DNA of 60,127 nt, taken from contig CAKZPS010000010.1 of the NCBI GenBank assembly GCA_937139415.1, positions 1-60,127 on the forward strand, read 5' to 3'. The notes below the pieces were generated by a model. It was not told the DNA's origin, did no database searches, and saw nothing but the letters and a program-made list of their open reading frames with translations. Each line of letters begins with the position of its first letter. Within the stretch, counting starts at the first letter, position 1. Of this stretch, positions 16,047 to 23,677 are shown piece after piece. This DNA is from an uncultured bacterium. GTDB taxonomy: Bacteria; Atribacterota; Atribacteria; Atribacterales; Caldatribacteriaceae. A program made the position numbers and the translations under genes.

Positions 16047-16232
16047 CTCCAAACCTCCTTAGGTCCTTTTTTCACACTATATATTATCACCTCTTTTGTT
16101 TCGATAGTTCCCGGGGGAGAAGGAAACTATTGGTCCTCAATCGAGTAAGCTCCTTTTCTTTTGAACGTTCATGGGGAGTGAGGCGCTGAGGAGCGAAATT
16201 TTTTCCTAAGATTTTTTCCCAATGTATTGAAA

Positions 16233-17465
16233 ATGATGGGGGAAATGCATATACTTCACACGAACTCCATAACTGCGGAGTTACTCCTTGAGGGCGTAGG
16301 TGATTTTAGGGCGATGGAAAGAAGAGCAAGGGTCTTAGAGAAAACTATTCCGGTGAGTGAAGAGCTGGTTGTCAATTTGGTGAAACGATATGGGACACCT
16401 CTTTTCCTTATTTTGGGGGAAAGGATAGCGCGCAACTACGCTGCCTTTCAAGAGTTTTTCCCTGGGGTAGAGATTTTTTACGCCGTGAAGGCTAATCCTC
16501 ATCCCCTGATTTTAGAGATGCTTGCCCGGTGGGGATCCTCGTTTGATGTTGCCTCAGCGCAAGAAATCGCCCTCATTTTAGAGCATGGAGTAGCGGCAGA
16601 ACGAATGATTTTTGCCAATACCATTAAGAAGAAAGAGGCTCTGCAGTACGCGCGAGAGAAACATATCCGCCTCCTCACCTATGATAATGAAGCAGAACTC
16701 TATAAAATCCGTACCTTTTACCCTGAAGCGGATTTAGTATTGCGCCTCAAGGTTCCCACTTTGGGGAGCCGCATCGACCTCTCCTATAAGTTTGGTGTCG
16801 AACCGGAGGAAGCAATGTATCTCTTGCGTTTGGCGAAGAGTTTGGGTCTTCGTACCGTGGGGTTGAGCTTCCATGTCGGTTCTCCCTGTCATAACCCTGA
16901 TAACTACCGTCGTTCCTTAGAGATGGTGAAAGTCATCCTCAACGACAGCGCGCGGGAAGGCATTTCTCTCTCTCTGGTGGATATTGGAGGGGGATTTCCG
17001 CTCCATACCTACTATGCCGAGGGAGAAGAAGCCAGCGTGGAGTACATGGGTGAAACCGTCTATCCCCTCCTCAAGCCCTTCATGGCCCGAGGGTATCGAG
17101 TCATTGCCGAACCGGGCCGAGGAATTGTGGGGAATGCTTGTCTTCTGGTGACCAGAGTCATTGGCAAGGCAGTCCATTCGGGGAGAGTCTGGTATTACCT
17201 GGATGACGGATTGTATGGAACTTTTTCCGCCATTCCCTTTGATAAAGCGAGTTTTACCTTTCACACCCTTCACAATGGAGAAGAAAAGATCCCTTGCGTT
17301 TTGGCAGGGCCGACCTGTGATTCTCTCGATGTGATTGCCGAAGGAGTCTTCTTGCCCTCCTTAGAGATCGATGATTTGATTCTCGTCCCTAACATCGGAG
17401 CGTACTCGCTCGCCTCGGCGACCAACTTTAACGGTTTTGAGAAACCGAGGGTACTCGTGGTGTAG
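16233..17465 (+). CDS. Ornithine/lysine-type (group IV, alanine-racemase-fold) PLP decarboxylase
   Basis: Fold-type III PLP decarboxylase of about 410 residues. The PLP lysine is in FYAVKANPHP, the phosphate-binding elements are DIGGGFP and EPGRGIVG, the catalytic cysteine is in GPTCDSLDVI, and the C-terminal aromatic loop is GAYSLASATNFNGF. These match ornithine/lysine decarboxylases better than diaminopimelate or arginine decarboxylases. The expected product is putrescine or cadaverine. The start is uncertain: no good ribosome-binding site precedes the ATG at 16233, and an ATG at 16314 would give a family-typical 383 residues. Confidence 0.88.
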   Translation: MMGEMHILHTNSITAELLLEGVGDFRAMERRARVLEKTIPVSEELVVNLVKRYGTPLFLILGERIARNYAAFQEFFPGVEIFYAVKANPHPLILEMLARWGSSFDVASAQEIALILEHGVAAERMIFANTIKKKEALQYAREKHIRLLTYDNEAELYKIRTFYPEADLVLRLKVPTLGSRIDLSYKFGVEPEEAMYLLRLAKSLGLRTVGLSFHVGSPCHNPDNYRRSLEMVKVILNDSAREGISLSLVDIGGGFPLHTYYAEGEEASVEYMGETVYPLLKPFMARGYRVIAEPGRGIVGNACLLVTRVIGKAVHSGRVWYYLDDGLYGTFSAIPFDKASFTFHTLHNGEEKIPCVLAGPTCDSLDVIAEGVFLPSLEIDDLILVPNIGAYSLASATNFNGFEKPRVLVV

Positions 17466-17476: not shown

Positions 17477-17502
17477 GAAAGTACCCTGTGCTGAAGGTGA
17501 AG

Positions 17503-18243
17503 ACCGTGTTGAAAGTTGAAAAGTTGCACGTGGCGGTAGGTGAACATTTGGTTCTCCAAGGAGTTGACTTAGAAATCCACGATGGAGAAGTCCACGTACT
17601 TCTCGGACCGAATGGGGTAGGGAAGACCACTCTCCTCATGGCTATTATGGGTGTTCCGGGGTATGAGGTGGTTTCCGGAAAAATCCTCTTCCAGGGAGAA
17701 GATCTCGTTCCCCTATCGATGGAAGAGCGGGCAAAAAGAGGGATCGGTATGGCGTTTCAGAAAATGCCTCCGGTACGGGGAATTTCTTTGCAGACCATGG
17801 GTGAAATCATCCTCAAAACTCATGGGCACGATGGGACGGTACATCTTGAAGAAGAAGCGGAACGGCTGAACTGTTCCTATCTCCTTCCTCGCGAGATCGG
17901 TATCGGTTTTTCCGGTGGGGAGGCGAAACGGGCTGAACTCTTGCAACTCCTCTGGCAACGCCCCTTATTTTCTATGGTTGATGAGCCCGAATCCGGAGTG
18001 GATCTCGACAATATCACCCTGGTTGGTAAAGCCTTGCGGGAGCTCTTTGAGCGGGAGCAGGTGAGGACCAAGAAGCGTTCTGGTCTTGTGATCACCCATA
18101 CCGGGTACATTCTCGAGTACTTGAACGCCGATCGGGGACATGTGCTCATGGAAGGACGGATTGTTTGTAGCGGAAACCCCCGAGACCTTTTCGAAGACAT
18201 TCGGGTCAAAGGGTACGGTGAATGTCTGAGGTGTGAACGATGA
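17503..18243 (+). CDS. sufC: Fe-S cluster assembly ATPase SufC (SMS-type)
   Basis: ABC ATPase of about 246 residues that drives the SufB scaffold. Walker A is LGPNGVGKTTLL, the signature is the SufC-specific GFSGGEAKRAELLQLL, and the Walker B is SMVDEPESGVDLDN. The Q-loop is MAFQKMPPV. It lacks a transmembrane partner and is followed by a single SufB/SufD-family gene with a four-base overlap, the minimal SufCB (SMS) arrangement common in archaea and anaerobic bacteria. The start may be GTG 17503 or TTG 17506, both after AAGGTGA. Confidence 0.93.
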   Translation, partial: TVLKVEKLHVAVGEHLVLQGVDLEIHDGEVHVLLGPNGVGKTTLLMAIMGVPGYEVVSGKILFQGEDLVPLSMEERAKRGIGMAFQKMPPVRGISLQTMGEIILKTHGHDGTVHLEEEAERLNCSYLLPREIGIGFSGGEAKRAELLQLLWQRPLFSMVDEPESGVDLDNITLVGKALRELFEREQVRTKKRSGLVITHTGYILEYLNADRGHVLMEGRIVCSGNPRDLFEDIRVKGYGECLRCER

Positions 18244-19487
18244 GTGGAGTGGAAGACACGCTTCGCGAAATTCGCGAGAGGGCAGAAAAAGCCCTTGAGA
18301 AAAAGGCTCCTCTGGGACCGGATGTCGATTTGACCCGTTTCTATGAGTGTTCACCGCAAGAGCGCTTGGGGAGCTTAGAAGAGATTGCTGCCCAGTTACG
18401 TGAGGCGGCATTGTACGCAGGGGTAGAGTTCGAAGCACCCGGAGCGGGAACGTATCTCCAGGTGGATCGTTCGGCGGTGTATGAGCGGGTCATTAAGCCC
18501 TTCGAGGGGAAATTGGAAATTATGACCGTGCGTCGGGCACTTGAATTGTACCCCGAACTCGTCACCCAGTATTGGTGGAAACTCGTGCCGGTTGACGCCG
18601 ATAAGTACGCCGCCTTTACCGAGCTCTGTTTTACCGAAGGCTATTTCATCCGGGTTTTTGCCCACCAGAAGGTGGAGATTCCTCTCCAGGCTTGCCTTTT
18701 GGTTTCCGAAAGATCTCGGGTACAGAGTGTGCATAACTTGGTCATCCTGGAGGAGGGAGCGGAAGCGAATATTGTCACCGGGTGTGCTTCGGTGAGAGGA
18801 GTGGATGAGGGTGTTCATATTGGGGTGAGTGAGTTTTACCTCGATCGGAATGCACGACTCACGTTTACCATGGTGCACAACTGGGGGGAGCGCTTCCACG
18901 TCCGTCCTCGTACCGCAGTGCACATGGAAGAAGGGTCTTTCTACAGTAGTACCTATGTCCTTCTCAAACCTATAGCTTCTCTGCAAACCTTTCCGCAGGC
19001 TCTTTTGAATGGCAGAGATGCTAACGCTCAATTTCAGAGCATTATTTTTGCCAAGGGTGATTCGGTTATTGATATCGGTTCAACCGTGGTCTTGAGAGAA
19101 CAAGGATGTCGGGGTAATTCCATCTCCCGGGTATGTGCTATAGAGAACGCCGCAGTGTACACCCGAGGGAGGCTTATCGCTTACCACAACGACACCCAAG
19201 CGCATCTTGAGTGTAAAGGAATTCTCTTTTCTCCTCAGGCGAAAATTATTTCCATTCCCGAACTTGAGGTTCACGGCGCACCGCAGGCGCGCTTGTCCCA
19301 CGAAGCAGCAGTGGGTCCCTTAGAAGAAGAAACCATTAATTACCTGAGAGCACGAGGTTTGAGCAAGGAAGAGGCTCTGTCGCTTCTCACTCGAGGATTT
19401 TTGAATGTGGATATTCCTGGTATTCCCCTTGCTTTGAAACGGTATATCGAGGAAATTGTAGCCATGACCTCGCGCGATGTATTGTAG
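18240..19487 (+). CDS. sufB: Fe-S cluster scaffold SufB (SMS-type SufB/SufD family)
   Basis: Beta-helix scaffold on which Fe-S clusters are built, 415 residues. The C-terminal core reads HLECKGILFS, then PELEVHGAPQARLSHEAAVG, INYLRARGLSKEEAL and the ending GF motif. The Cys in ECKGIL occupies the position of the essential SufB cysteine. There is no separate sufD, sufS, sufE or sufU nearby, so the sulfur source is not evident here. It overlaps sufC by four bases (ATGA). Confidence 0.93.
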   Translation: MSGVEDTLREIRERAEKALEKKAPLGPDVDLTRFYECSPQERLGSLEEIAAQLREAALYAGVEFEAPGAGTYLQVDRSAVYERVIKPFEGKLEIMTVRRALELYPELVTQYWWKLVPVDADKYAAFTELCFTEGYFIRVFAHQKVEIPLQACLLVSERSRVQSVHNLVILEEGAEANIVTGCASVRGVDEGVHIGVSEFYLDRNARLTFTMVHNWGERFHVRPRTAVHMEEGSFYSSTYVLLKPIASLQTFPQALLNGRDANAQFQSIIFAKGDSVIDIGSTVVLREQGCRGNSISRVCAIENAAVYTRGRLIAYHNDTQAHLECKGILFSPQAKIISIPELEVHGAPQARLSHEAAVGPLEEETINYLRARGLSKEEALSLLTRGFLNVDIPGIPLALKRYIEEIVAMTSRDVL

Positions 19488-19489
19488 GG

Positions 19490-19732
19490 GTGTTTTTGGT
19501 GGGGGTTCAGGCGTACATCTTGATCCAGGTTCAGGCGGGGAGAGCGCAAGGCATTAAAAAGGAGTTAAGCCAAAGCCCCTACTTTTTGCGTATTGACCGG
19601 GTTATGGGACCTTTTGACCTAATTGCTTTGGTCGAAGTGGAGAGCAATCAGGAAATCGGTGAAATAGTGTTAAAAGAGATTCAATCTCTAAGTGGAGTCA
19701 AAAGAACGCTCACCTGTCCTGTTATTCCTTGA
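19490..19732 (+). CDS. Stand-alone RAM (Lrp/AsnC ligand-binding) domain protein
   Basis: A protein of about 77-80 residues matching only the C-terminal RAM domain of Lrp/AsnC regulators: QAYILIQVQAGRAQGIKKEL, the turn GPFDLIALVEV and the end GVKRTLTCPVI. There is no DNA-binding helix-turn-helix. Stand-alone RAM proteins form rings and bind amino acids or modulate full-length Lrp proteins. Start uncertain among GTG 19490 and GTG 19499. It sits between sufB and the LexA-like gene. Confidence 0.85.
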   Translation: MFLVGVQAYILIQVQAGRAQGIKKELSQSPYFLRIDRVMGPFDLIALVEVESNQEIGEIVLKEIQSLSGVKRTLTCPVIP

Positions 19733-19742
19733 GAAAAGGGCG

Positions 19743-20348
19743 ATGGAAAACCGAAAACGCATCTCTCCCAAGGGAGAAGAAATACTCTTTTTTCTCGAAT
19801 GGTACATTCAAAAGAATGGATACCCCCCCACCGTGAGAGAAATCGGTGAAGCCGTCGGTTTAGCTTCTTCATGTAGTGTTCATTACCATCTGCGGAAATT
19901 AGAGGAACAGAATCTCATTCGCCGCACCCCGGGTAAACCCCGGGCTATTGAACTCAATGTCCATCAAATGAATTTTCAGTTGGAAAAGGAAGTAGTGTTT
20001 CTTCCCTTTTTAGATAAGCTCTCCTTCACCAAAAGAGGCCTTGAGGTGGGGAATGCGGAAAAATTCTTCTTGTTCTCCCGTTCGCTCCTTGAGGATGAGG
20101 AATGTTTTGTTTTCCGGGTGAGAGACGATAAATTCCAAGGGTGGAATATTTTGCCTGGGGATTATCTCATCGTGGCCAAGAAGGATTCAGGATGTGCAGG
20201 GAGTCTCATGTTGGTGTGGGAAGGAGAGAAGGTTGGCGTGCGAAAGGTAGGAGAGAACGGAAGATTGATGATGGAGCCTGAATCATCTTCTCCTTGGGAT
20301 GCGTCAATGGTGGTAGGGAAAATTGTTGGCGTGTGGCGAAAGCTATAG
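19743..20348 (+). CDS. lexA: LexA-like repressor without recognisable autocleavage residues
   Basis: A 201-residue LexA-type protein. The N-terminal winged helix (about 1-65) is typical: YIQKNGYPPTVREIGEAVGL, SCSVHYHLRKLEEQNLIRR. The C-terminal S24-like domain is recognisable from FRVRDDKFQGWNILPGDYLIVAKK near 124-147. The GDSM serine position is Lys130, and the expected Ala-Gly cleavage site near 85-100 is not seen (PFLDKLSFTKRGLEVG). The catalytic lysine strand reads GEKVGVRKV, with Lys168 not clearly aligned. It is therefore probably a repressor that cannot cut itself, or one of different output. The preceding neighbour is the RAM protein. Confidence 0.8.
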   Translation: MENRKRISPKGEEILFFLEWYIQKNGYPPTVREIGEAVGLASSCSVHYHLRKLEEQNLIRRTPGKPRAIELNVHQMNFQLEKEVVFLPFLDKLSFTKRGLEVGNAEKFFLFSRSLLEDEECFVFRVRDDKFQGWNILPGDYLIVAKKDSGCAGSLMLVWEGEKVGVRKVGENGRLMMEPESSSPWDASMVVGKIVGVWRKL

Positions 20349-20360
20349 GGGTGATAGAAA

Positions 20361-20777
20361 GTGGTGGTGACCCAGGAACTTCGTCTTTCTACTTCCGGAC
20401 ATACCGAGATTATGAAAATCACCGAACAGGTGCGCGAGTTACTCCGTGGTTCTTGCCTCCGTCAGGGTGTGGTGTGTCTCTTTGTGCCGGGGAGTACCGC
20501 ATCGATTACCACTATGGAATTCGAGCCGGGTCTCATCGAGGATTTGCGTCGGGCATGGGAGAAAATTGCCCCCGTTCACGGAGAGTACGCACACAATGCC
20601 CGCTGGCATGATGGCAACGGTTATGCCCATGTTCGGGCGAGTCTCGTTGGTCCTTCACTCGTCGTTCCTTTTGTCGACGGAGAACTGCTCCTCGGTACTT
20701 GGCAGGATGTGGTTTTCATCGATTTCGACAATCGGTCCCGCGATCGGCGGATCATCGTGCAAATCGTGGGGGAGTGA
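20361..20777 (+). CDS. YjbQ/UPF0047 family protein
   Basis: A 138-residue single-domain protein. Family elements are visible: YAHNARWHDGNGYAHVRASLVGPSLVVP, then DGELLLGTWQDVVFIDFDNRSRDRR. The usual HTTA motif reads PGSTASITTMEFEPGL, a variant I associate with archaeal and thermophile members. Some relatives have weak thiamin phosphate synthase activity; the true role is not settled. GTG start with several GTG choices. It lies four bases before the Fe-alcohol dehydrogenase start. Confidence 0.88.
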   Translation: MVVTQELRLSTSGHTEIMKITEQVRELLRGSCLRQGVVCLFVPGSTASITTMEFEPGLIEDLRRAWEKIAPVHGEYAHNARWHDGNGYAHVRASLVGPSLVVPFVDGELLLGTWQDVVFIDFDNRSRDRRIIVQIVGE

Positions 20778-20780
20778 GCC

Positions 20781-21914
20781 ATGGCAGATACTTTTCTTTT
20801 CCGTCTTCCTCGAGAGATTTACTTTGGGAGTGGTCAAGGGAAGAGAGTGGGGGAGCTCGTACAGCGTTTCGGTGGGAAAGCCTTGGTCGTTACCGGAAAG
20901 CACTTTACCAAAAAGTACGGTATTTTAGATGAAGTCCTTGATTCTTTGCGTTCTGCCTCGGTCGAAGCGATAGTGTTTGACCAAGTGGAACCGGAGCCTT
21001 CCCTTGCTACCGTGGATCGCGGCCTTCGTTTGAGTTACGAAGAGAATTGTATCATGGTCATTTCCTTAGGAGGAGGGAGTGTCCTCGACTGTGGGAAAGC
21101 CATTGCCGGAGTGTGGGGAAACGGGGAGAGTGTCGTGCCTTATTTTACGAGCGGAAGTCAAGTTTCCCGTCCCGGATTGCCTTGGATAGCCATGCCTACC
21201 ACCGCCGGGACCGGCTCAGAAATGACCAATAACGCCGTACTCACTGACTATGAACATAACCTCAAAAAGAGCGTGCGTAGTCCCTTGTTCATCGCTACCA
21301 TGGCGATCATCGATCCTCTCTATACGCATTTTATGGACCGGTATTTAACGGCGGTAAGCGGTATCGATGCCTTAGTACAGGCGATCGAAGCCTATACCAG
21401 TCCTCGCGCCAATCCCATGACTGATTTTTTAGCCTTGGAGGCAACAGAAACCCTTTGGAGATATTTACCGCTTGCGGTTGAGGAAGGGAGTAACCCTGAG
21501 TATCGGAAGCAGATGGCCTTAGGGAGTATGGTGAGCGCCATGGCTTTTGCCAACACTTCTTCCGGTCCGGTTCATGGATTGGCGCATATGGTTGGTCCGG
21601 ATTTTCACATCGTTCACGGGGAGTCCTGTGGTCTCTTATTTCCGCCGGTAGCCCGTTTCAACGCCCAGATTCTTCGGGAGCGCTACATCCGTTTGGCGCA
21701 GGTTACGGGGTATGATACGGTGGAGGGATGGATTGAGGCTTTCGAACAACTTTTACGGCGCATTGGTTTGCGGACTCGATTGCGTGATTTCGGGAGGCGC
21801 AAGGAAGAGTTGCAGGCGGTAGTACGAGAAGAACGAATCGGACCCAATATCCGGGAGAATCCCCGTGCGATGGGTAAAAAAGAGTTAATCATGCTCTTAG
21901 AAGAAGTGTGGTGA
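20781..21914 (+). CDS. Iron-containing (group III) alcohol dehydrogenase
   Basis: NAD(P)-dependent dehydrogenase of 377 residues. The N-terminal Rossmann-like half has the GGGSVLDCGKAIA motif, and the metal half has SGIDALVQAIEAYTS, GPVHGLAHMVG and FHIVHGESCG, which supply Asp and three His ligands. The start ATG has GGGGGAGTGAGCC upstream. The substrate (alcohol, butanol, lactaldehyde or semialdehyde) cannot be told from sequence. It forms a tight series with the following cupin gene. Confidence 0.93.
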   Translation: MADTFLFRLPREIYFGSGQGKRVGELVQRFGGKALVVTGKHFTKKYGILDEVLDSLRSASVEAIVFDQVEPEPSLATVDRGLRLSYEENCIMVISLGGGSVLDCGKAIAGVWGNGESVVPYFTSGSQVSRPGLPWIAMPTTAGTGSEMTNNAVLTDYEHNLKKSVRSPLFIATMAIIDPLYTHFMDRYLTAVSGIDALVQAIEAYTSPRANPMTDFLALEATETLWRYLPLAVEEGSNPEYRKQMALGSMVSAMAFANTSSGPVHGLAHMVGPDFHIVHGESCGLLFPPVARFNAQILRERYIRLAQVTGYDTVEGWIEAFEQLLRRIGLRTRLRDFGRRKEELQAVVREERIGPNIRENPRAMGKKELIMLLEEVW

Positions 21915-21925
21915 GGAGGAATACC

Positions 21926-22261
21926 ATGGAATGGGTACGAGAGGAAGAGAAGGCTTTTCGTGAGGGAGATTGGGGGATTAAGTATCTCTTTCGGGGTCCC
22001 CGCCTCGATTGGGGAATCGTGTATCTCAAGCCGGGGACCAATATGGGAGCTCACTACCACGAGGAGGTGGAAGAAACCTTCTTCATTTTGGAAGGGAAGG
22101 GGATTCTCAAGGTGAATGGTCAAGAGATTCCGGTGGAGAGAGGAATGGCGTTTCGGCTCGAGCCTCACGAGAAGCACGATCTCTTTGCTCCTTGTGATTC
22201 TTCCCTAAAAGGCATTTTCATCAAGGTTCCTTACCTTCCGGAGGATAAGATCAATTGCTGA
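21926..22261 (+). CDS. Small single-domain cupin protein
   Basis: A 111-residue cupin. The first cupin motif is GAHYHEEVEETFFILEGKG, the second is GMAFRLEPHEKHDLFAP. His/Glu ligands for a divalent metal are present. Function unknown; small cupins often bind or isomerise sugars or act as metal-sensing domains. GAGGAGGAATACC precedes the ATG at 21926. The end overlaps the next gene. Confidence 0.88.
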   Translation: MEWVREEEKAFREGDWGIKYLFRGPRLDWGIVYLKPGTNMGAHYHEEVEETFFILEGKGILKVNGQEIPVERGMAFRLEPHEKHDLFAPCDSSLKGIFIKVPYLPEDKINC

Positions 22262-23142
22262 GGCGAGGAAAGCTCCTTGAAGAGGTTGCTTGGTCGCTTT
22301 ATGAGCGCTTGAAGCACTGTGATTTGTGTCCTCATCAGTGCGGAGTCAACCGCGTGCAGGGGGAGAGGGGTTTTTGTCGTGGGGGAGTGCACCCACGTAT
22401 AGCCAGTGCTCATCCCCATTTTGGGGAAGAAGCTCTCCTCAGCGGGAGGAGGGGTTCGGGAACCATCTTTTTTGCGGGGTGCAGCATGCGGTGCGTATAC
22501 TGTCAGAATTACTCGATTAGCCACGAGGACGAAGGAGAGGAAGTGAATATCGAGGTTTTGGCGCAAGTCATGCTCCAACTCCAAAGAGAGGGGTGTCACA
22601 ACGTTAATTTGGTCACCCCGACGCATTTTCTCCCCCAAATTTGTTTGGCTCTCTTACAAGCAGAGCAGCAGGGGTTTCGTCTCCCCGTGGTATACAATAC
22701 CGGTGGCTATGAACGGGTGGAAATTTTACAAACCTTGCGTGGGGTAGTGGATATTTATCTCCCTGATATGCGTTATGCTAAAGACGAAAGTGGTCAAAAG
22801 TATTCGGGAGTCCATTCTTATCCCTTTTTCAATCGGAAGGCGATCCAAGAAATGTTCGCTCAAGTGGATGGGGTACAGTGCAATGAAGAGAATGTTGTGG
22901 AGAGAGGAGTCATTGTTCGAATACTCCTCATTCCTCCTCTCCTTGAGGAAGCCAAGGAGAACTTGCGGTTTTTGGCTGAGCAAGTTTCCCGAGACGTTCA
23001 TATTACTCTGATGCGTCAGTATCACCCTGCGTACCGTGCCCATGAATATCCAGAATTGAATTGTTTCGTCGATCGGCAAAGGTATAGAGAGGTACTCCAT
23101 TACGGGCTAAAATTGGGTTTAAAAAACTTGATTCTCCAATGA
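22255..23142 (+). CDS. PflX-type radical SAM protein (pyruvate-formate-lyase-activase-like)
   Basis: A 295-residue radical SAM protein of the PflX (COG1313) group. It has an N-terminal cysteine set CDLCPHQCGVNR...GFC (about residues 22-42) and the radical SAM cluster motif GCSMRCVYCQN. The later parts YLPDMRYAKD and RQYHPAYRA are typical of the group. The target is unknown; relatives resemble glycyl-radical-enzyme activases but usually have no partner nearby. The TTG start has GGAGG upstream and overlaps the cupin gene. Confidence 0.88.
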   Translation: MLRRGKLLEEVAWSLYERLKHCDLCPHQCGVNRVQGERGFCRGGVHPRIASAHPHFGEEALLSGRRGSGTIFFAGCSMRCVYCQNYSISHEDEGEEVNIEVLAQVMLQLQREGCHNVNLVTPTHFLPQICLALLQAEQQGFRLPVVYNTGGYERVEILQTLRGVVDIYLPDMRYAKDESGQKYSGVHSYPFFNRKAIQEMFAQVDGVQCNEENVVERGVIVRILLIPPLLEEAKENLRFLAEQVSRDVHITLMRQYHPAYRAHEYPELNCFVDRQRYREVLHYGLKLGLKNLILQ

Positions 23143-23155
23143 AGGAGGGAGGAAT

Positions 23156-23677
23156 ATGGAAGAAATTTTGCGACAGGTCGCTGAGCTCATGGCGGTTTCT
23201 GCTCGTACTGCGCCGAAGGCGGGGGGCAAAGATTTTGTTACCACGAAGATATTGGTGAAAGATGAAGTGCAAAAATTAGGCGAAGCAATGGTACAATATG
23301 GAGAGGAAAGGGGAATTCGGGGTTTTGTTCGTGACGGTCAGAACGTGTTGAATTCCCAAGTGGTGCTTCTCATCGGTATTAAAGATGCGCAGGTTATGGG
23401 TTTAGACTGCGGGGGGTGCGGTTTCGATACCTGCAAAGAACTCGTGCCTCAGGAGAAGCGAGAATTTAAGGGTCCACAGTGTATGCTGCGGCTCTTAGAT
23501 TTGGGGATTGCTTTGGGATCGGCGGTGAAAACGGCATCGCTCTTCAATGTGGATAACCGCATTATGTATCGGATTGGCGTAATAGCGCGAAAGTTGGAGA
23601 TTTCGCAGGATGATATCGTGATGGGTATTCCCATTTCGGCATGGGGGAAAAATATTTATTTCGATCGCAAAGAGTAG
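23156..23677 (+). CDS. DUF2148 ferredoxin-domain protein
   Basis: A 173-residue DUF2148 protein. The diagnostic cluster-binding element GLDCGGCGFDTCKEL is at about residues 81-95, and ARTAPKAGGKDF is near the N-terminus. The family is found mostly in anaerobes and archaea and is thought to bind an iron-sulfur cluster. It follows the PflX-type radical SAM gene by 13 bases with AAGGAGGGAGG before the ATG, suggesting co-expression. Confidence 0.88.
   Translation: MEEILRQVAELMAVSARTAPKAGGKDFVTTKILVKDEVQKLGEAMVQYGEERGIRGFVRDGQNVLNSQVVLLIGIKDAQVMGLDCGGCGFDTCKELVPQEKREFKGPQCMLRLLDLGIALGSAVKTASLFNVDNRIMYRIGVIARKLEISQDDIVMGIPISAWGKNIYFDRKE

Follow-up and report, generated by a model that had tools for sequence, protein, structure and literature searches.

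LexA ranks with the best-known repressors of bacteria, and its presence is usually taken to signal an SOS response. The stretch of 60,127 nucleotides analyzed here (the window) contains a gene for a LexA-like protein that, according to an earlier note made from the letters of the DNA, had lost the machinery for self-cleavage. The questions raised by this locus are whether the protein can still act as a switch for DNA damage, how far such a loss extends among its relatives, and what a LexA that is not cleaved might regulate.

The window protein is a LexA in which the residues for self-cleavage are replaced

The open reading frame of the window protein contains zero internal stops. The protein matches the Pfam family LexA_DNA_bind (PF01726) with 67.4 bits (cut-off 23.7), whereas its Peptidase_S24 domain is borderline and barely recognizable (23.6 bits, cut-off 23.3), and the score for TIGR00498 lexA is 98.5 bits, which lies under the equivalog cut-off of 110.95. 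Matches in the PDB are LexA repressors, that of T. maritima ranking first. A structure was modeled with AlphaFold2 on the alignment and reached a mean pLDDT of 79.8 and a pTM of 0.54, that is, moderate global confidence. The top Foldseek matches of this model are LexA structures, with low whole-chain TM-scores (about 0.4-0.5), as would be expected when two domains are joined by a flexible linker, and single-domain matches of about 0.6-0.9 when normalized by target length. Both the Pfam score above cut-off and the resemblance of the model to LexA structures place the C-terminal domain in the S24 fold.

The window protein was aligned with its relatives from the same order and with 7 cleavable relatives (alignment A1), and the residue columns were counted from this alignment. 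All 7 cleavable relatives possess the catalytic Ser and Lys. In the window protein Lys130 occupies the Ser column, as the earlier note had read from the GDSM motif, and Phe95-Thr96 stand in the columns of the Ala-Gly bond, which had likewise been reported missing. The strand of the catalytic lysine, described as altered (GEKVGVRKV), has Arg167 in the Lys column, and K168 sits one residue past it, where canonical LexA has Arg. The structural check proposed in the earlier note was answered in part: the model obtained with AlphaFold2 and Foldseek is LexA-like, and no Ser is found at the aligned position. As neither Ser nor Ala-Gly is present at the aligned positions, a rebuilt catalytic dyad seems unlikely. 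These replacements argue strongly that RecA no longer triggers self-cleavage, and the claim that the protein would not respond to DNA damage by cleavage finds strong support in its sequence together with the clade-wide pattern described below.

The loss is shared by one clade of the order

Seventeen LexA-like proteins from four families of a single order, the window protein included, make up the degenerate set. Ser is absent from all 17 (the column holds K, G, A, T, R or N), Ala-Gly is absent from all 17, and Lys is absent from 16, the column being occupied by R, E, W or G, with K only in G003. The loss is not a sequencing error, because Ser and Ala-Gly are missing likewise from 16 relatives of the same order, which have open frames; a reading of the window gene as a pseudogene was rejected as well. 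One further copy, in G007 (contig C180:26862-27424), is split over two frames, so that either the assembly is wrong or the gene is broken, and was left out of the set.

In a tree of 30 sequences, which used 15 of the 17 degenerate proteins and no cyanobacterial ones, the degenerate proteins formed one group with support 100/100, apart from the canonical LexA proteins of families f5 and f7; this tree has several long branches and the branching within the degenerate clade is uncertain. The remainder of the phylum retains a cleavable LexA. It is well supported, as far as sequences can tell, that these proteins represent a real cleavage-dead derivative of LexA, under selection and with a single origin in the order. 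Genome profile searches found no full LexA-like protein in genus g8 or in G019. A second canonical-looking type of LexA (AG, GDSM, TVKR) was seen in two genomes of family f7, G042 and G044 (L042:1063-1698:- and L048:1021-1656:-).

Selection has kept the DNA-binding domain and a C-terminal strand

Pairs of proteins within the degenerate clade share on average 66% identity over the DNA-binding domain and 34% over the C-terminal domain; for canonical proteins the two averages are 73% and 75%. Scored by sum-of-pairs, conservation in the clade reaches 3.68 in the DNA-binding domain, where 25 of 65 columns are invariant, and 3.06 in the C-terminal strand. The segments connected with cleavage have drifted in comparison with the canonical proteins: the cleavage loop scores -0.87 versus 2.94, the Ser loop 0.62 versus 4.03 and the Lys strand 0.89 versus 3.96. 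For pairs with computable, non-zero dS, dN was well under dS in both halves of the protein; for G001/G004 the dN/dS values were 0.012/1.43 in the DNA-binding domain and 0.105/0.80 in the C-terminal domain. Such a profile is what one would expect if DNA binding and self-pairing had been kept and cleavage lost, and the conserved C-terminal strand points to dimerization of the window protein.

Among the positions that are fixed in the clade and differ in the canonical proteins are Cys44, Tyr48 and Trp198; Cys44 is present in 17/17 degenerate proteins and in none of the 7 aligned canonical proteins. The earlier note had called the winged-helix half ordinary LexA; this holds for the strong LexA_DNA_bind match but not for Cys44 and Tyr48, which are clade-invariant and do not occur in the canonical proteins compared. 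Both residues lie in the recognition helix, of which 7 of 13 columns are invariant in the clade. Judged by the E. coli LexA-DNA structure, positions 44 and 48 presumably fall where LexA contacts bases, and for this reason the operator of the degenerate clade has likely shifted from that of LexA.

The gene belongs to a conserved metabolic operon

The features of the locus are collected in Table 1. The gene order lysA-sufC-sufB-RAM-lexA-UPF0047-FeADH-cupin-rSAM-DUF2148 is retained in families f1, f2 and f4, although UPF0047 was not found at two f1g4 loci in the synteny comparison. In f3, lexA still lies between RAM and UPF0047 and no sufC or sufB match adjoins. The RAM gene is directly upstream of lexA at each of the order's 14 synteny loci and was present in 25/25 genomes searched, lexA-less ones included; lexA-less genomes (g8, g10) retain it mostly with FeADH close by. 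RAM and sufCB, through which the earlier note had suggested that repression might be relieved, are thus not tied to lexA, because RAM outlives the loss of lexA and lexA outlives the absence of sufCB.

Table 1. Features of the lexA-like gene, its product and the surrounding operon (window coordinates)
Feature	Position	Strand	Evidence
Likely operon promoter, sigma-70-like, TTGAAA-17-TATACT, best of the region (10/12)	16227..16255	+	Similar sites precede lysA in related genera
lysA-like PLP decarboxylase, first gene of conserved operon	16227..17465	+	Profile match, synteny
sufC ATPase	17488..18243	+	Pfam, synteny
sufB/D	18240..19487	+	Pfam, synteny
Stand-alone RAM (Lrp/AsnC ligand-binding) domain protein, 80 aa, no HTH	19490..19732	+	Pfam, synteny
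LexA-like regulator, 201 aa, predicted cleavage-dead	19743..20348	+	ORF translation, Pfam, TIGR00498, alignment, structure model
DNA-binding winged helix (residues 7-71), its recognition helix carrying the clade-specific residues Cys44 and Tyr48	19761..19955	+	Pfam, conservation
Phe95-Thr96, at position of Ala-Gly cleavage bond	20025..20030	+	Alignment
Lys130 codon, at position of catalytic Ser	20130..20132	+	Alignment
Arg167 codon, at position of catalytic Lys	20241..20243	+	Alignment
Conserved C-terminal strand, residues 187-201, Trp198 clade-invariant; putative dimer interface	20301..20345	+	Conservation; interface from known LexA structures
UPF0047 protein	20361..20777	+	Pfam, synteny
Iron-containing alcohol dehydrogenase (FeADH)	20781..21914	+	Pfam, synteny
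Cupin	21908..22261	+	Pfam, synteny
Radical SAM protein (rSAM)	22255..23142	+	Pfam, synteny
DUF2148 ferredoxin-domain protein	23156..23677	+	Pfam, synteny

Promoter-like sites in the region are not more numerous than in shuffles, and the support for the likely operon promoter comes from its recurrence across genera, judged by eye. The listed TTG start of the lysA-like reading frame overlaps the -35 element of this promoter (window 16227-16300), and because of this coincidence the true start of lysA is probably located downstream.

Operator searches

Nineteen genomes were scanned for the Firmicutes SOS box CGAACN4GTTCG, allowing 1 mismatch, and counts were compared with those of a mirrored control. 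Counts exceeded the control only in G004 and G013 and fell short of it in the other 17 of 19 genomes; the dinucleotide make-up of the control differs and the clade's own operator may not match the box. A search over ten operon-promoter regions revealed no shared dyad that stands out, the best one being a 4-base half-site common to 3 genera that was equalled in 7 of 100 shuffles. An inverted repeat resembling ACTCC/GGAGT, just 3' of the operon -10, was rejected as an operator since its spacing varies among genera; to the eye it resembles a hairpin at the 5' end of the mRNA more than a protein operator. At the f1 recA loci that were read, another reading frame lies upstream of recA and no LexA box is evident. 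The operator search proposed in the earlier note has thus returned neither an evident box ahead of the f1 recA genes nor a standout dyad at the operon promoter. Judged solely by the position of its gene, the window protein would control its own operon.

Other S24 proteins and damage control in the order

The earlier note had asked whether a second, normal LexA exists. In the window's genome, a draft of 2.32 Mb that is 96% complete, a profile search found no second LexA_DNA_bind protein, and relatives of the same family also show a single LexA_DNA_bind match each. The genome encodes one other S24 protein, of XRE type (G000 contig C72, L001:1240-1893:+), which has intact PCG, GDSM and ITIKK motifs and is its only cleavable-looking S24 protein. 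Across the order, intact S24 cleavage residues (Cys-Gly, Ser, Lys) occur only in such XRE-type repressors.

Of 18 genomes with a degenerate LexA, one (G018) has a Y-family polymerase (PF00817). Of the 15 genomes with canonical LexA that were read, 10 have one, in each case on the same contig as lexA and within about 5 kb of it; these counts are not phylogenetically independent across genomes. In the LexA-less genus g8, an XRE-S24 repressor adjoins a short S24 (UmuD-like) reading frame and a Y-family polymerase, and a palindrome (TTGCGTTTACGCAA) lies upstream of the repressor. At L091 (G017), the XRE-S24 repressor (1480-2133:-) is divergent from a UmuD-like reading frame (2266-2604:+), with a Y-family polymerase further on.

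What the protein might do

The window protein is probably an ordinary regulator of a metabolic operon and not a switch for DNA damage. RecA-triggered self-cleavage would have been lost once, in the ancestor of the order, and the protein would have been retained as a stable dimeric transcription regulator with a non-SOS role. With Cys44 and Tyr48 at base-reading positions, it would bind an operator unlike the Firmicutes SOS box, and it would regulate its own operon. Relief would come from a ligand, a partner, a modification or dilution, with no involvement of cleavage, and any cleavage-based damage control that persists in the order would fall to XRE-S24 (HdiR/CI-like) repressors. We infer the target, the relief signal and the handover of damage control to XRE-S24 proteins, and regard this reading as a whole as reasonably probable. 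Against it count the Lys that G003 still has in the Lys column, the lack of any operator or regulon in the box scan and the dyad search, and the moderate global confidence of the structure model.

A more specific version, in which a single event converted the LexA of the order into a re-specified regulator of an Fe-S/redox operon, with relief through oxidation of Cys44 or through RAM and with XRE-S24 proteins taking over damage control, appears doubtful. Its redox component, by which oxidation of Cys44 would block DNA binding and so couple the Suf/FeADH operon to the redox state, is by itself unlikely. The occurrence of Cys44 throughout the clade and in none of the aligned canonical proteins makes a thiol switch possible, the operon encodes Fe-S assembly and redox enzymes, and the non-cleavable LexA of Synechocystis has been linked to redox-responsive expression in a 2006 paper, as relayed by PMC4759255. 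However, the recognition helix is highly conserved overall, so base reading may be all that Cys44 does; another invariant Cys was not seen in the clade, and f3 keeps lexA without an adjacent sufCB.

That the RAM protein acts as a ligand-dependent antirepressor or co-regulator, much as Tum acts on the repressor of phage 186, is quite improbable. The constant place of its gene immediately upstream of lexA would agree with such a partnership, and the phage offers a parallel, since its CI repressor has an S24 fold without the canonical active site (PMC12984324) and the antirepressor Tum binds the repressor and stops it from binding the operator (PMC3121763), but the retention of RAM without lexA in g8 and g10 indicates a lexA-independent role.

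A permanent, LexA3-like super-repressor that holds DNA-repair genes constitutively off would be compatible with the retained LexA DNA-binding domain, yet nearly all carriers are without a Y-family polymerase, no box is evident upstream of recA in f1, the SOS-box pattern is not enriched and the gene sits inside a metabolic operon, all of which makes this explanation very improbable. The least probable explanation is a decaying relic with no function left, for although the C-terminal domain evolves fast and the gene is gone entirely from genus g8 and G019, the frames are open in 17 genomes, both halves are under purifying selection and the dimer-strand positions are invariant.

Comparison with known systems

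The preferred reading, a LexA-derived dimeric regulator outside the SOS response, can be set beside several described repressors. A literature search, which covered part of the literature, found no paper linking LexA with Atribacterota or Atribacter and none on the present clade. Canonical LexA proteins (f5, f7, E. coli, T. maritima) share with the window protein the winged helix, the S24-type fold and a C-terminal strand of the GKxxG type; they possess Ala-Gly, Ser and Lys and are cleavable, whereas the window protein lacks all three. Canonical lexA genes in the phylum are often found near a Y-family polymerase gene, whereas the degenerate lexA lies in a metabolic operon. Phage 186 CI is similar in its S24 fold without a canonical active site but is a phage protein with another DNA-binding domain and a known antirepressor. 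HdiR, UmuDAb and the non-canonical LexA of Bacteroidetes are non-LexA S24 repressors of other lineages that can run a damage response (PMC8565304), as the XRE-S24 proteins may do here; they stay cleavable and resemble the XRE-S24 protein on C72, not the window protein.

By analogy, the closest precedent for the window protein is LexA from Synechocystis sp. PCC 6803, which has neither Ala-Gly nor the catalytic Ser and for which control of many non-SOS genes has been described (PMC7567884, PMC4759255). Both proteins belong to the LexA family, carry the LexA DNA-binding domain and have lost Ala-Gly and Ser. The papers name the loss of only these two elements, whereas here Lys is also lost in 16/17 proteins, and the present loss is order-wide, with one apparent origin, in a gene located in a Suf/FeADH operon. 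The C-terminal GVWR of the clade matches the MGVWR end of a Synechocystis LexA peptide in PMC7567884, which might reflect shared ancestry or coincidence.

A search with the DNA-binding domain would label the members of this clade lexA, yet self-cleavage is apparently gone, so the gene name is no proof of SOS competence. In this clade one can trace how a damage switch seems to have turned into another kind of regulator, and the phylum also holds cleavable relatives with which to compare it.
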